Source: Aquirufa sp.
GTDB taxonomy: Bacteria; Bacteroidota; Bacteroidia; Cytophagales; Spirosomataceae
NCBI GenBank assembly: GCA_030833145.1
Contig: JAURHT010000101.1
Coordinates: 1 to 6,821 of the forward strand
Length of the DNA: 6,821 nt
Reading direction: 5' to 3'
The position numbers and the translations under genes were made by a program. This document shows, one piece after another, positions 1 through 6,821 of the stretch (its first letter is position 1; every line of letters starts with the position of its first letter). The notes beneath the pieces are model-generated. The model was given only the letters and a program-made list of their open reading frames with translations, was not told the origin of the DNA and searched no databases.

Positions 1-792
1 AGCCGCGTCAGTACCGCCATGGAATGCACCGTAACCCCCTTCTAATTCACGAGATGCTTGCGTATCTGGCAAGTTATTAGGCGCTTTTCCGCAAATAACT
101 AATCCACCCCAGTCACCCGCTTCACGTGTTCCTGGATCTCTTTCTGATGTAAATACGATAGGAGCTGCCGCAGTACCGATGGCGTTGATTTTAGAACCGC
201 GTTGTACGATTAACGCACCTTTAGTAGCACGCTCACCTACGATTACCGTACCTGGCTCGATAGTCAAGTTACCCACTTTCGTAATCGTTCCGAACGTAGC
301 TTCTTCGCCTACACGTACAAAACCTGATAATTTATAGATTTTGTTAGCCGTCCACGTAACGTTTCCTTCAATCACACCTGTTACTGTAACGATTTGCTTA
401 GGAGGCGTAGCAGTAACGGTCACAACCACTGGAACTAGAGCAGAAATTTGGCTCTTGTTATCCGTAGCTTGGATCGTAAAGTTTACTACTGTACCTGCTG
501 TTAAAGCTTCAATCGTGTAATTCGAAGTATACGTGTATGATTTCTCTCCCGCTAATACCTTCGTTTCAAATGGAGCACCGTTTTTCAAAACAGTGATCGA
601 TTTTAATCCCGCAGGAGCAGAGATTGTAGCGCTTACTGTCACAGTAGCACCCGCGATTCCAGACAATGCACCGCTAGACGTTACCGTAGGTAGCGGGAAA
701 ACTTCATCTTCTTTTTGGCAAGAAGAGAATGCAAGAGAAACGACTGACAAAACAGCCATTAACTTGAACAATTTGTTTGTAAAAAGTTTCAT
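1..792 (-). CDS. Surface-exposed lipoprotein with Ig-like and beta-helix-like regions, partial (3' end outside window)
   Basis: An open frame of 264 codons runs from the ATG at 792 to the left edge without a stop, so the C-terminal part is missing. The N-terminus is a lipoprotein signal peptide: Lys2, Lys7 and Lys10, a hydrophobic core at 11-22, then F-S-S-C with the lipidated Cys25. The next residues, QKEDE, closely match the Bacteroidota lipoprotein export signal (QKDDE-like), so surface display is expected. Residues about 31-130 are Val/Thr-rich and resemble a bacterial Ig-like domain. From about 135 the sequence resembles a right-handed beta-helix: short turns such as LTIEPGTVI and ALIVQRGSKI, then PIVFTSE and GDWGGLVICG. 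This pattern is common in Bacteroidota lipoproteins encoded next to TonB-dependent receptors. The ATG lies 35 bases after the receptor stop with no terminator, so the two are probably cotranscribed. The function is inferred as a substrate-binding or accessory partner of that receptor; the ligand is unknown. Confidence 0.82.
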   Translation of the reverse strand, partial: MKLFTNKLFKLMAVLSVVSLAFSSCQKEDEVFPLPTVTSSGALSGIAGATVTVSATISAPAGLKSITVLKNGAPFETKVLAGEKSYTYTSNYTIEALTAGTVVNFTIQATDNKSQISALVPVVVTVTATPPKQIVTVTGVIEGNVTWTANKIYKLSGFVRVGEEATFGTITKVGNLTIEPGTVIVGERATKGALIVQRGSKINAIGTAAAPIVFTSERDPGTREAGDWGGLVICGKAPNNLPDTQASRELEGGYGAFHGGTDAA

Positions 793-3693: not shown

Positions 3694-3701
3694 CAAAAGT
3701 A
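3694..3701 (-). promoter_or_regulatory. Predicted -7 element of the receptor promoter
   Basis: Read on the minus strand this is TACTTTTG, an exact fit to the Bacteroidota -7 consensus TAnnTTTG. Transcription would start near 3687-3690, giving a leader of about 25 bases before the receptor ATG at 3665. No TTTG is present at the -33 position; a GTAACG repeat of the upstream array sits there instead, which suits an activator-dependent promoter. This was identified by motif and spacing only. Confidence 0.55.
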
Positions 3702-3721
3702 TTCTCTCTATTTCGGGGCTT

Positions 3722-3760
3722 CGTTACGGTTATGTTAGGCTTCTGTTATGTAAATGTTAA
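3722..3760 (-). promoter_or_regulatory. Four TTAACA-like direct repeats with 11-base period: putative PhoB/PhoP-type operator
   Basis: On the minus strand, reading toward the receptor gene, the hexamers are TTAACA (3760-3755), ATAACA (3749-3744), CTAACA (3738-3733) and GTAACG (3727-3722). Each is separated from the next by exactly five bases. Direct repeats of TTAACA-like hexamers at an 11-base period are the known layout of PhoP boxes in Bacillus; cyanobacterial SphR sites (CTTAACCT) and the E. coli pho box share the 11-base repeat. The proximal repeat covers the expected -33 position of the TACTTTTG promoter, as expected for a class II activator. The repeats and spacing are directly visible. 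Assignment to a PhoB-family regulator is inference; another OmpR-family regulator could bind the same architecture. Confidence 0.55.
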
Positions 3761-3776
3761 ATGAAACCCTATTCGA

Positions 3777-3793
3777 TTAACAATTTCGTAACA
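3777..3793 (+). promoter_or_regulatory. Second pair of TTAACA-like repeats, inverted relative to the main array
   Basis: On the plus strand, TTAACA (3777-3782) and GTAACA (3788-3793) are again separated by five bases. Their TAAC cores are 22 and 33 bases from the last GTTA core of the minus-strand array, so all six elements share one 11-base register, with one empty position at the point where orientation flips (centre about 3768.5). They point toward the rightward gene, but no good -7 element lies at the distance seen on the other side. They may therefore be an accessory site or chance in AT-rich DNA. Confidence 0.3.
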
Positions 3794-3813
3794 TAGGTAT
3801 TTTTTGCAGAAAA

Positions 3814-3893: not shown

Positions 3894-3909
3894 ATTAACA
3901 CGGATTTAA

Positions 3910-3939
3910 TTTGCGGGTAAAGTGAAAGCACTAGTTTTG
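3910..3939 (+). promoter_or_regulatory. Predicted promoter for the small secreted protein gene
   Basis: A -33 element TTTG (3910-3913) and a -7 element TAGTTTTG (3932-3939) match both halves of the Bacteroidota consensus, with 18 bases between them, close to the usual spacing. The start of transcription would be near 3945, leaving a leader of roughly 44 bases before the ATG at 3989. The spacer carries the AAAGTGAAA motif at 3919-3927, a possible operator. Confidence 0.6.
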
Positions 3940-4401: not shown

Positions 4402-5589
4402 TTAGGTCAGTTCTTTGCTCTTGATTTTGTGCAGCAAAAACACGGCGACCAGGATCGGAAGCGAGAAAATCAGGAATCGCCCCGCCACAGACATACCACT
4501 ATCTGTCAGTAGTCCAAAAACCGTAGGTCCCATGATCGCCCCAAAACGACCCGCTCCCATCGCCAAGCCCACACCAGTGGATCGAATAGCTGCGGGATAA
4601 ATCCGCGTCGCTGCCGGATAAAAACTATTGAATCCGCCCTGTACCAAAAATCCGATGAAGAACACTAAGGTTAGGTTGACTACATAATCGAGTTTTACGT
4701 TACCATAGAAATTCATCAAGATAAAGGCCACGATAAAAAAGAGCGTCATCGTTTTCTTGATCCCTATTTTACTAATCGCCAAACCCATCACAAACACTCC
4801 AGTGAAAGCCCCAAAATTCAAGGTCATTCCCACGTAGGTGGCGAGCTCGAAGGGCATGCCAGATTGTTTGGCGAGAGTAGGTACCCAGCTGATTAAGGTA
4901 TACAAAGTCAAAAAGCCAAAGAAAATAGCCGTCCACAACAACAAAGTGGACGCTCGGTATTCAGGGGTGAAAAGTTCCTTCATCCTAGTCTTAGTGTGTT
5001 TCGATTCCGACACGAATCCAGGAGATTCTGGCAGAAAGAAATAGACCAATAATAATAGCGCAAATGAAAAAGCACTCGCAATCAAAAAGGTCGCGCGCCA
5101 GCCTAATAACGGGAATACCCAGGCCACTACAAAACCCGTTAAAATCGCTCCCAAAGGCCAGCCTCCTTGAACAATCCCCACATTGAAATCGCGGGTTTTA
5201 TCGGTGGAAAACTCAGAGGCGACCGTGGCTAAATTAGGCAGGATCCCGCCGATGCCTAAACCGGTAATCAATCTGAAAATCAGTAATGCTTTTAATGATG
5301 GAGCGAAATAAACGAGCAACATGCCCACACTAATTAGAAACAAAGATCCTAAAAAGACCTTACGCCTTCCCCATTGATCTCCCAAAGGTGCTAAAATGAA
5401 ACAGCCCGCCGTCATCCCCGCTAATCCTGCCGAAAAAACATACCCTAGTTCCGCATTATTCAAGCCCCATTCTTTCATGATGTGCTCACCAGCAAAAGAA
5501 ACGAGCAAAACGTCGATTCCGTCATTGAAATTGAGCAAAAAGCAGAGGGAGACTACGCCTGTTTGGAGCCAAGACATCGAGTTTTTCAT
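4402..5589 (-). CDS. MFS transporter, AAHS-like (aromatic/organic acid:H+ symporter type)
   Basis: A 395-residue inner-membrane protein with the 12 hydrophobic segments and central loop (about 191-212) of a major facilitator. It resembles the aromatic acid:H+ symporter branch (PcaK-like). TM1 carries D23-G-I-D26, equivalent to the DGxD pair important in PcaK. The TM2-3 loop has the MFS signature around D71 (PLGDQWGRRK, 68-77), though its usual first Gly is Ala67. TM4 has R106 with GLGIGG at 110-115. PESPGF lies at 188-192 after TM6, and RSTGVGLAMGAGRFGAIMGP at 336-355 is typical of the AAHS/sugar-porter-like group. Its ATG overlaps the dehydrogenase stop (ATGA, 5589-5586), which indicates translational coupling. 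It is the last gene of the operon, so it probably imports that pathway's substrate. Aromatic acids, sugar acids and other carboxylates are all possible; the sequence does not decide among them. Confidence 0.88.
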   Translation of the reverse strand: MKNSMSWLQTGVVSLCFLLNFNDGIDVLLVSFAGEHIMKEWGLNNAELGYVFSAGLAGMTAGCFILAPLGDQWGRRKVFLGSLFLISVGMLLVYFAPSLKALLIFRLITGLGIGGILPNLATVASEFSTDKTRDFNVGIVQGGWPLGAILTGFVVAWVFPLLGWRATFLIASAFSFALLLLVYFFLPESPGFVSESKHTKTRMKELFTPEYRASTLLLWTAIFFGFLTLYTLISWVPTLAKQSGMPFELATYVGMTLNFGAFTGVFVMGLAISKIGIKKTMTLFFIVAFILMNFYGNVKLDYVVNLTLVFFIGFLVQGGFNSFYPAATRIYPAAIRSTGVGLAMGAGRFGAIMGPTVFGLLTDSGMSVAGRFLIFSLPILVAVFLLHKIKSKELT

Positions 5590-6554
5590 ACGATCTGAAC
5601 GACGATTTTTCCGGGATGTCCGTCCTTGGCCGCTTCTAAACCGGCCTGAACCTCCGCAAGAGGAATGTATTTTGAAATGATTTTATGGGGTTGAATTTTT
5701 CCGTCTTCAATCAATTGAATGACTGCCTGGAAATCTTCCGGATGGTCGTAAATCAAAGAACCTTGGATTGAAATGCCTCGGCGAACTAAATCCAAGGGGG
5801 TAAAGCTAGCCTGCTTTTCGGATAAGCCTAAGAGAATGACACTGGCACCGCGCGGAGCATCAGCAATAAGTTGTGTGGTAGCTGCAGCAGAACCGGTGCA
5901 TTCGAAAATCACGCGGATGTCTTCTGCTTTCCAATCGCCTTTAAAGGCTCCAAATTCATACGCTTTCTCCTGCAAAACAGGATTCAAATCAGTCGCATAA
6001 ACTTTCAAGCCTTGTTCCACCGCGAGGTGCGTAATCAGCATCCCGATGGCTCCTAATCCAAGGACATAGATGGCATCGCCTTTTTTCAACGCTGCCTTTT
6101 TCAATGCATGATAGGCGACAGCTGTAGGTTCGATGGTCACAGCATCTTGCGAGGTAATAGAGTCTGGCAGTTTGTGAGCGAAATCTGCCGGAATCAGCAC
6201 GTATTCAGCGAAACAACCGGGGGCGTTTAGGCCAATGGTGCGTTTATTCGGGCAAACCGTCGCTTGGCTACGTGCGCAATAGCTACATTCCCCACAAGGC
6301 GCATTGGGATCTACCACCACTCTTTCTCCTAGTTCGCGGTTTACTCCCTCGCCTAGCGCGTCGATGTGGCCCCAGCCCTCGTGACCGATGATGGTGGATT
6401 CAGGCAGCGGACGATGTCCACCAAAATAATGCACATCCGATCCGCAAATACCGACTTCCTGCAAGCGAATGCGTAGCTGGCCTGGACCGGGGTTTGGGAT
6501 AGGGTGATCGCCTAGTTCGATTTGCAAAGGTTTTAAGAGAACGGCCGCTTTCAT
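5586..6554 (-). CDS. Zinc-dependent medium-chain alcohol/polyol dehydrogenase
   Basis: A 322-residue cytoplasmic NAD(P)-dependent oxidoreductase of the medium-chain (MDR) family. The catalytic zinc site is complete: C37 (GICGSD), H58-E59 (GHEGWG) and E142 (IEPTAVAYHA). The structural zinc site has all four Cys (87, 90, 93, 101). The Rossmann motif is G166-L-G-A-I-G171 and the following strand ends in D189 (YATDLN), which favours NAD over NADP. The overall pattern is that of sorbitol, threonine and RspB/gulonate-type dehydrogenases, so the substrate is likely a secondary alcohol of a polyol, sugar acid or hydroxy acid. The protein is shorter than the usual 340-350 residues because the segment between the second Rossmann strand and the next (about 196-215) is compressed; motifs on both sides are intact, so this is not a frameshift. 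The start at 6554 overlaps the VOC stop (TAATG). It sits between the VOC gene and the transporter in one operon. Confidence 0.92.
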   Translation of the reverse strand: MKAAVLLKPLQIELGDHPIPNPGPGQLRIRLQEVGICGSDVHYFGGHRPLPESTIIGHEGWGHIDALGEGVNRELGERVVVDPNAPCGECSYCARSQATVCPNKRTIGLNAPGCFAEYVLIPADFAHKLPDSITSQDAVTIEPTAVAYHALKKAALKKGDAIYVLGLGAIGMLITHLAVEQGLKVYATDLNPVLQEKAYEFGAFKGDWKAEDIRVIFECTGSAAATTQLIADAPRGASVILLGLSEKQASFTPLDLVRRGISIQGSLIYDHPEDFQAVIQLIEDGKIQPHKIISKYIPLAEVQAGLEAAKDGHPGKIVVQIV

Positions 6555-6821
6555 TAGAGTATCTGATTGAATTCGATGATCTCGCCGTTCGGACCTTTGA
6601 CATTAAAAAAGCGGGTGCCGTTTTTCCAAAAAGCCAAAAACGTAGGTTCCTTTTCAATAATGTCAAATCCTGCTTGCTTTAAGGCTTCGAACGCATAATC
6701 CACATCCTCCACGTCGATGGCGAAATGGTCGATGTGACCGACTTTGCGTTGTTTGATTTCGGCTAATTGCTTTTCCGGCATTTGGTATAACTCCACGATC
6801 ACCTCGTGATTCTTCATCATC
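6554..6821 (-). CDS. VOC-superfamily (glyoxalase/dioxygenase fold) protein, partial (5' end outside window)
   Basis: Eighty-eight residues from the ATG at 6820 to the TAA at 6554 are visible. They correspond to the later part of a vicinal-oxygen-chelate protein of about 125-130 residues. The visible metal ligands fit the family: Glu10 in VELYQ, His32 in GHIDHFAIDV, and Glu83 in GPNGEIIEF. Glu10 belongs to the first beta-alpha-beta-beta-beta module, so the two Met codons at the edge are probably internal and the true start lies beyond 6821. Members of this fold act as isomerases, lyases, epimerases or dioxygenases on small oxygenated substrates with a divalent metal. The stop overlaps the dehydrogenase start by one base, so it is cotranscribed and probably acts in the same pathway. 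The exact reaction cannot be assigned. Confidence 0.85.
   Translation of the reverse strand, partial: MMKNHEVIVELYQMPEKQLAEIKQRKVGHIDHFAIDVEDVDYAFEALKQAGFDIIEKEPTFLAFWKNGTRFFNVKGPNGEIIEFNQIL

Follow-up and report, generated by a model that had tools for sequence, protein, structure and literature searches.

We analysed a stretch of 6,821 nucleotides from the freshwater bacterium Aquirufa sp. (hereafter the window), in which the gene for a TonB-dependent receptor and the beginning of a surface lipoprotein gene lie next to each other on one strand, and a gene for a small secreted protein diverges from them on the other (Table 1). The receptor of L001, a locus from a Cytophagaceae MAG, is 97% identical to that of the window over the best tblastn segment; L001 falls in the genus of G001, which we sampled with 38 genomes that include A. 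nivalisilvae (G002). The lipobox cysteine of the lipoprotein, C25 (assigned by eye), is invariant in 26 aligned sequences. This protein has no match in a local copy of Pfam and no solved relative among PDB sequences; a beta-helix fold would therefore be a tentative assignment. The divergent secreted protein has no Pfam match, and its gene keeps its position beside the receptor both in L001 and in the relative G022.

Table 1. Genes and promoter features around the receptor start in the window.
Feature	Position	Strand	Description
Surface lipoprotein gene, start only (window edge)	1..792	-	264 aa visible; 596 aa in relative L001
TonB-dependent receptor, 945 aa	828..3665	-	CarboxypepD_reg-like domain and Plug; 43 related loci
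Receptor -7 element TACTTTTG (TAnnTTTG)	3694..3701	-	Last TAAC begins 25 bp upstream; spacing common to orthologues
Four-unit 11-bp direct-repeat array	3717..3760	-	Proposed receptor-operon Pho box; units TTAACATTTAC 3760-3750, ATAACAGAAGC 3749-3739, CTAACATAACC 3738-3728, GTAACGAAGCC 3727-3717
Inverted two-unit box	3777..3798	+	11-bp register same as array; units TTAACAATTTC 3777-3787, GTAACATAGGT 3788-3798
Second promoter-type box TTAACACGGAT TTAATTTGCGG	3895..3916	+	Two units, faces divergent gene
Divergent promoter -7 element TAGTTTTG	3932..3939	+	25 bp from box TAAT
Divergent small secreted protein, 112 aa	3989..4327	+	Candidate second target for the regulator of the receptor array

The receptor is preceded by TAAC units that face it, each exactly 11 bp from the next, and by a -7 element of the form TAnnTTTG, which we take to be the Bacteroidota-type consensus. 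A preliminary description of this DNA had reported four repeats facing the receptor at this exact period and two inverted repeats in the same 11-bp register; we find both, at the positions given in Table 1. The inverted pair lacks an exact TAnnTTTG at the expected distance, and it therefore probably serves as an upstream site for a regulator rather than as a promoter box. The two-unit box of the divergent gene had been overlooked in that description.

The sequences of the spacers vary, and TAA words are common in AT-rich intergenic DNA; this could point to a chance or compositional repeat, or to a general feature of receptor promoters unrelated to regulation. We regard this explanation as extremely improbable. 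We simulated 3000 regions of 323 bp under each of two Markov models, and at least three TAAC spaced by 11 bp occurred in none. The window itself contains no run of three TAAC at any other period from 6 to 24. When up to three mismatches were allowed, the four-unit pattern was matched in 1 of 200 window shuffles, and the real sequence has one match without mismatch. The array also recurs in register in nearly all orthologous promoters (33/35) and is carried by pitA, phoB and phoX promoters, as detailed below. A sigma-70 reading of the TTAACA words was set aside, as it yielded two sites against a shuffle average of 1.5.

To describe conservation, we used the 43 orthologous receptor loci; 3 are without upstream DNA, and 35 of the other 40 have an exact TAnnTTTG within 200 bp. 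The last TAnnTTTG, picked without regard to TAAC, served as the anchor. At least three in-register units (14, 25, 36, 47 or 58 bp before TAnnTTTG) are present in 33 of the 35 anchored promoters, as compared with 0 when the registers are shifted. By position, TAAY stands 25 bp before the -7 element in 34 of the 35 promoters, 36 bp before it in 33, 47 and 58 bp before it in 23 each, and 14 bp before it in 11. It also occurs at 78 bp, inside the inverted pair, in 12/35; the median at the remaining offsets is 0. The two exceptions are L040, with one in-register unit on its last TAnnTTTG, and L019, with two. In the five unanchored loci (L012, L028, L030, L041 and L042), arrays lie before a GACCTTTG-like element, which was picked there with TAAC in view. 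Because orthologous promoters are related, their common register shows conservation, not independent origin. Conservation in orthologues had been set beforehand as a test of the preliminary description, and the 33 anchored promoters answer it in the affirmative; their fixed spacing before TAnnTTTG also agrees with its proposal that the proximal repeat stands in place of a missing -33 box.

Searching for the same motif before other genes of the genus, we found the exact pattern TAACAN6TAACAN6TAAC at 14 places in the 38 genomes, corresponding to 10 distinct arrays in 8 genomes, and the reversed exact pattern at none. These 10 arrays precede the window-type receptor (6), a second receptor (2) and a PitA-type phosphate transporter (2); the other 30 genomes contain no exact three-unit match. 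A PHO4-family transporter is encoded in 37/38 of the genomes, and the A. nivalisilvae PitA homologue matches NF033774 at 1.3e-118, below the cut-off. A full, close match to the PhoB-like regulator of Emticicia is present in 35/38 (E of 2.3e-83 or better); the search returned fragments in G019 and G029, and a distant match only in G042. With the consensus TTAAYAN5NTAAY, used alone for this count, a site lies within 120 bp of the start at 29/29 readable pitA loci and at 30/30 phoB loci, and periods 8-10 and 12-15 give at most 3; these are the best 30 loci for each gene from the 38 genomes (pitA without L136), all from one genus and so not independent. The spacing of the phoB box is one base longer, and for this reason our first anchored scorer missed it.

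A stricter pattern had matches in only 3 of 10 relatives. With a loose pattern, 7 genomes gave 73 matching places; the reversed control gave 29, and a considerable share of the 73 are accordingly chance. Genes were examined at 20 of these places, chosen by eye. Five have TAnnTTTG 37-39 bp past the site start; the gene downstream is phoB-like in three of them (L080, L081, L096) and a pit gene in the other two (L083, L090). The other 15, including sites upstream of a helicase-like gene in L078, L079 and L087, are without TAnnTTTG and are not claimed. At these three Emticicia loci, the two-unit TTAACATTG lies directly before a dnaB-like gene (identified by eye) and has no -7 element; it is conserved but probably unrelated. 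At L085 and L086 (Arundinibacter and Rhabdobacter), three- to four-unit arrays lie about 44 bp before genes for similar secreted proteins of 149-151 aa, with no TAnnTTTG between the array and the start codon.

Within a single genome, G022, we ranked sites with a matrix built from units of 15 hand-picked receptor promoters outside the genus, mostly from Emticicia, Runella, Leadbetterella, Arundinibacter and Rhabdobacter, with two (L012 and L030) from MAGs known only as Cytophagaceae. Run over 2.4 of the 2.5 Mb, this matrix places its best two-unit site in a pitA promoter and its second-best at the counterpart of the window's inverted pair (19.3 bits). The pitA site scores 22.4 bits in this genome-wide scan and 25.0 in an anchored scan because the former matrix was built from three units per promoter (45 units) and the latter from the second and third only (30 units). 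In all, 38 unanchored sites exceed 10 bits: 8 lie before phosphorus genes, the receptor or the divergent gene, and about 30 at non-phosphorus genes, most of them inside coding sequence.

The anchored scan covered 544 TAnnTTTG words within 200 bp upstream of G022 gene calls, and only five reached 10 bits or more. These belong to pitA, a TIGR03364 oxidoreductase, phoB, the receptor and a PF00149/PF12850 phosphoesterase; the receptor promoter is kin to the training set, and the other four are different genes. Column-shuffled matrices gave on average 0.3 and at most 3 such sites in 200 trials. By period, sites of 10 bits or more number five at 11, three at 10, one at 14 and none at 8, 9, 12 or 13. 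Four further anchored sites of 7 to 10 bits lie at genes without an evident phosphorus link. The oxidoreductase scores 358.5 bits against a cut-off of 285.1 for TIGR03364, presumably a family of phosphonate loci. The phosphoesterase is PlcP-like, and the gene after it encodes a PF13528/PF04101 glycosyltransferase. For F. johnsoniae, the excerpted text of PMC8115612 groups PF12850 and PF04101 under lipid remodelling. With the consensus TTAAYAN5NTAAY, sites precede 12 of 1956 gene calls in G022: seven are phoB, two pitA, the phosphoesterase, the TIGR03364 oxidoreductase, the receptor and the divergent gene, and five are non-phosphorus genes. By count alone, this loose consensus gives 12 genes at period 11 versus 10 at period 10.

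The motif also extends to phoX elsewhere in the phylum. In an even sample of 148 Bacteroidota genomes, 15 had a match to PF05787 (PhoX), 14 of them over cut-off. At ten loci (L293-L302), with the longest ORF taken as phoX, a TAAY chain at 11 bp lies within 180 bp upstream in seven, one of which has four units; some of these phoX genes are alike, and not all are independent. The summed 11-bp chain score is 27, compared with an average of 1.1 and a maximum of 8 in 1000 simulations and with 0 to 11 at other periods. Among the seven, L299 is weak, with a fraction of 0.084 of its simulations reaching its score, and the phoX loci L292, L303 and L304 have no array. The two pstS genes taken from Spirosomaceae (Emticicia and Arundinibacter) gave a weak pair, TAACAAACAGTTAATC, at 11 bp in one (L307) and none in the other (L308). 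Because of this result, and because the genus has no PstB over cut-off, Pst is a poor test of the motif. The preliminary description had named phosphate genes of the same genome as the place to look for the same array; in relatives we find the box before pitA (29/29), phoB (30/30), the PlcP-like phosphoesterase and the TIGR03364 oxidoreductase, and in other Bacteroidota before phoX (7/10).

The gene content of the receptor operon in relatives points in the same direction. In L001, the receptor is followed by the 596-aa lipoprotein, a 180-aa lipoprotein, a 134-aa protein with a CxxCH motif (seen by eye), a 353-aa PF01676 enzyme and PitA, and L003 has the same order minus the 134-aa protein; families for the PF01676-type enzyme and the PHO4 transporter were assigned by a scan of the L001 proteins. 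At the corresponding site in G022, the receptor and lipoprotein are of other sequence (judged by eye, unaligned), and the PF01676 enzyme and PitA are kept. The surrounding region (G022:C1 988000-1002200; L221, L222) is a phosphorus island in which several genes are boxed; it contains the PlcP-like phosphoesterase, the glycosyltransferase, a PF07396 phosphate-selective porin, two PitA, the TIGR03364 oxidoreductase, the PF01676 enzyme, the lipoprotein and the receptor.

The PhoP box of B. subtilis has TTAACA-like letters and belongs to a Gram-positive promoter. A review, in its excerpted text, ascribes similar 11-nt direct-repeat features to B. subtilis and describes the Pho box as a pair of 11-nt direct repeats whose sequence is species-dependent (PMC4415409). 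Like the E. coli PhoB box, the Aquirufa-type box has at least two 11-nt direct repeats, which lie a short way upstream of the core promoter; unlike in E. coli, the unit is TTAAC(A/T)TTG-like and not CTGTCAT, and the box is tied to the Bacteroidota TAnnTTTG, with two to five units, some of them inverted upstream. In the excerpted part of PMC1906773, the cyanobacterial SphR box consists of at least three tandem 8-bp repeats, CTTAACCT, with a 3-bp linker. The 11-bp period and TTAAC core are common to the SphR and Aquirufa-type boxes, whereas the phylum, the promoter type and the way in which the unit continues differ. In B. fragilis, PhoB binds a pstC promoter fragment, and the excerpted text of that report does not use the words motif or consensus (PMC3547664). 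Our literature search, with most subscription journals outside its scope, gave no paper on a Bacteroidota Pho-box motif among the matches listed.

We propose that the array is a Pho box for low-phosphate, PhoB-type control of the receptor operon, and on the basis of sequence comparison we put the probability of this reading, with its predicted binding and induction, at roughly 0.87. Phosphate-starvation control of the receptor unit was the central suggestion of the preliminary description, and the conserved array and the phosphate-gene target set in relatives support it. Under phosphate limitation, a phosphorylated PhoB-type regulator would bind the array head-to-tail, with one winged-helix domain per 11-bp unit and all on one face of the DNA. 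The proximal end of PhoB would then lie about 25 bp upstream of TAnnTTTG, standing in for the missing -33 element, and PhoB could recruit RNA polymerase as on E. coli Pho boxes. The operon so switched on would comprise, in the order of L001 and L003, the receptor, the surface lipoprotein, the small lipoprotein, the alkaline-phosphatase-superfamily enzyme and PitA, and might provide a route for phosphorus from the cell surface to the cytoplasm.

Direct-repeat layouts are common to several OmpR-family regulators, and half-sites for KdpE are reportedly named in one paper; moreover, G022 encodes other related regulators. The sites could therefore belong to another member of the OmpR/PhoB family that uses 11-bp direct repeats and answers to a non-phosphate signal, which we consider quite unlikely. 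The targets are pitA, the PlcP-like phosphoesterase, the TIGR03364 oxidoreductase, phoX and the PhoB-like regulator's own gene, and by eye no other regulator gene occurs among the 11 anchored sites of G022. This target set argues for a PhoB-type regulator. The candidate has the PF00072 and PF00486 domains; its best NCBIfam models, TIGR02154 (PhoB) and NF053854, both remain below their curated cut-offs, with 206.6 bits versus 296.2 required by the NCBI PhoB model, and PhoB is still its best family.

What the receptor carries is a separate question. A TonB-dependent receptor beside a surface lipoprotein is the gene layout of the Pi-starvation pairs of the FI/FII and ElpS type, and by this layout the window resembles the Flavobacterium pairs and Cc0171/ElpS. 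A study of the low-phosphate transcriptome and proteome of one Bacteroidota member, whose main text contains neither the word motif nor the word promoter (PMC8115612), describes in its excerpted passages strong low-Pi induction of the F. johnsoniae receptor-lipoprotein pairs Fjoh_3857/3856 and Fjoh_0545/0546, with the lipoprotein FI the most differentially transcribed gene at low phosphate. In Caulobacter, ElpS is a Pi-starvation lipoprotein beside the receptor Cc0171 (PMC2996285, as excerpted). These pairs also lend themselves to another reading, in which the array is a true Pho box and the receptor imports a non-phosphorus compound, such as a metal or cofactor that phosphatases require, or the pair serves the secretion or display of phosphatases. 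In the passages available from Lidbury et al., the Flavobacterium lipoproteins are related (31-36% identity) to a low-Pi Caulobacter lipoprotein to which an accessory part in phosphatase activity is ascribed (PMC8115612), and in those from the Caulobacter work ElpS is a type II secretion substrate whose adjoining receptor, Cc0171, is constitutively expressed (PMC2996285). We think this reading rather doubtful, if worth keeping in view: the operon of L001 and L003 places a phosphatase-superfamily enzyme and PitA in one unit with the pair, an arrangement for which uptake and release of phosphate is the simplest fit. We thus favour a receptor that handles a phosphorus compound, and the comparison of sequences would assign to phosphorus nutrition a receptor-lipoprotein pair that had no assigned function.

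How phosphate would be sensed in this genus is a further point. PhoU was found in none of the 38 genus genomes (13 of 14 control genomes were positive), and PstB over cut-off in none of them, the best score being 145.8 bits against 343.2 (13 of 14 controls were over). The PstS cut-off was reached in 0 of 101 family genomes, with a model that exceeded it in only 8 of the 14 controls. PhoB, a PhoR-like kinase and a boxed pitA are present where PhoU and PstB over cut-off are absent; in G022, the orthologue of the PhoR-like kinase of Emticicia (3.6e-111; next 4e-33) is not beside phoB. On balance, we lean slightly towards a PhoB-box regulon that operates in this genus without the classical phosphate sensor, with PhoR sensing by another route and PitA acting as a regulated starvation importer, not a housekeeping one. 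Phosphate input to PhoR might come from the flux through PitA, from cytoplasmic phosphate or from the receptor operon that the box controls. A Pho response that lacks Pst would have a precedent, because pstS is missing from part of Flavobacterium, as already published (PMC8115612, as excerpted).

These results have practical implications. They provide a simple motif that can be tested, a series of TTAAC(A/T)TTG-like units with an 11-bp period that ends 25 or 14 bp before TAnnTTTG, and this could be used for predicting phosphorus-acquisition genes across Bacteroidota. They also place a PitA importer under predicted starvation control in a genus that apparently has neither Pst nor PhoU.

The divergent gene could likewise belong to the regulon as a new member, and because the second box faces it, we suggest that the small secreted protein would be co-induced with the receptor operon. 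Among 20 relatives, 7 keep 7 of the 8 core letters of this box, which is also the number in the window, 10 keep 4 to 6, and 3 gave no anchored site. The counterpart in G022 scores 6.8 bits in the anchored scan. Beyond the divergent gene, genes for an aromatic-acid-type MFS transporter, a zinc-dependent alcohol dehydrogenase-like enzyme and a glyoxalase-family protein form an apparent second operon on the minus strand of the window (4402-6820), and the same gene group adjoins the receptor locus in L003 and G022.
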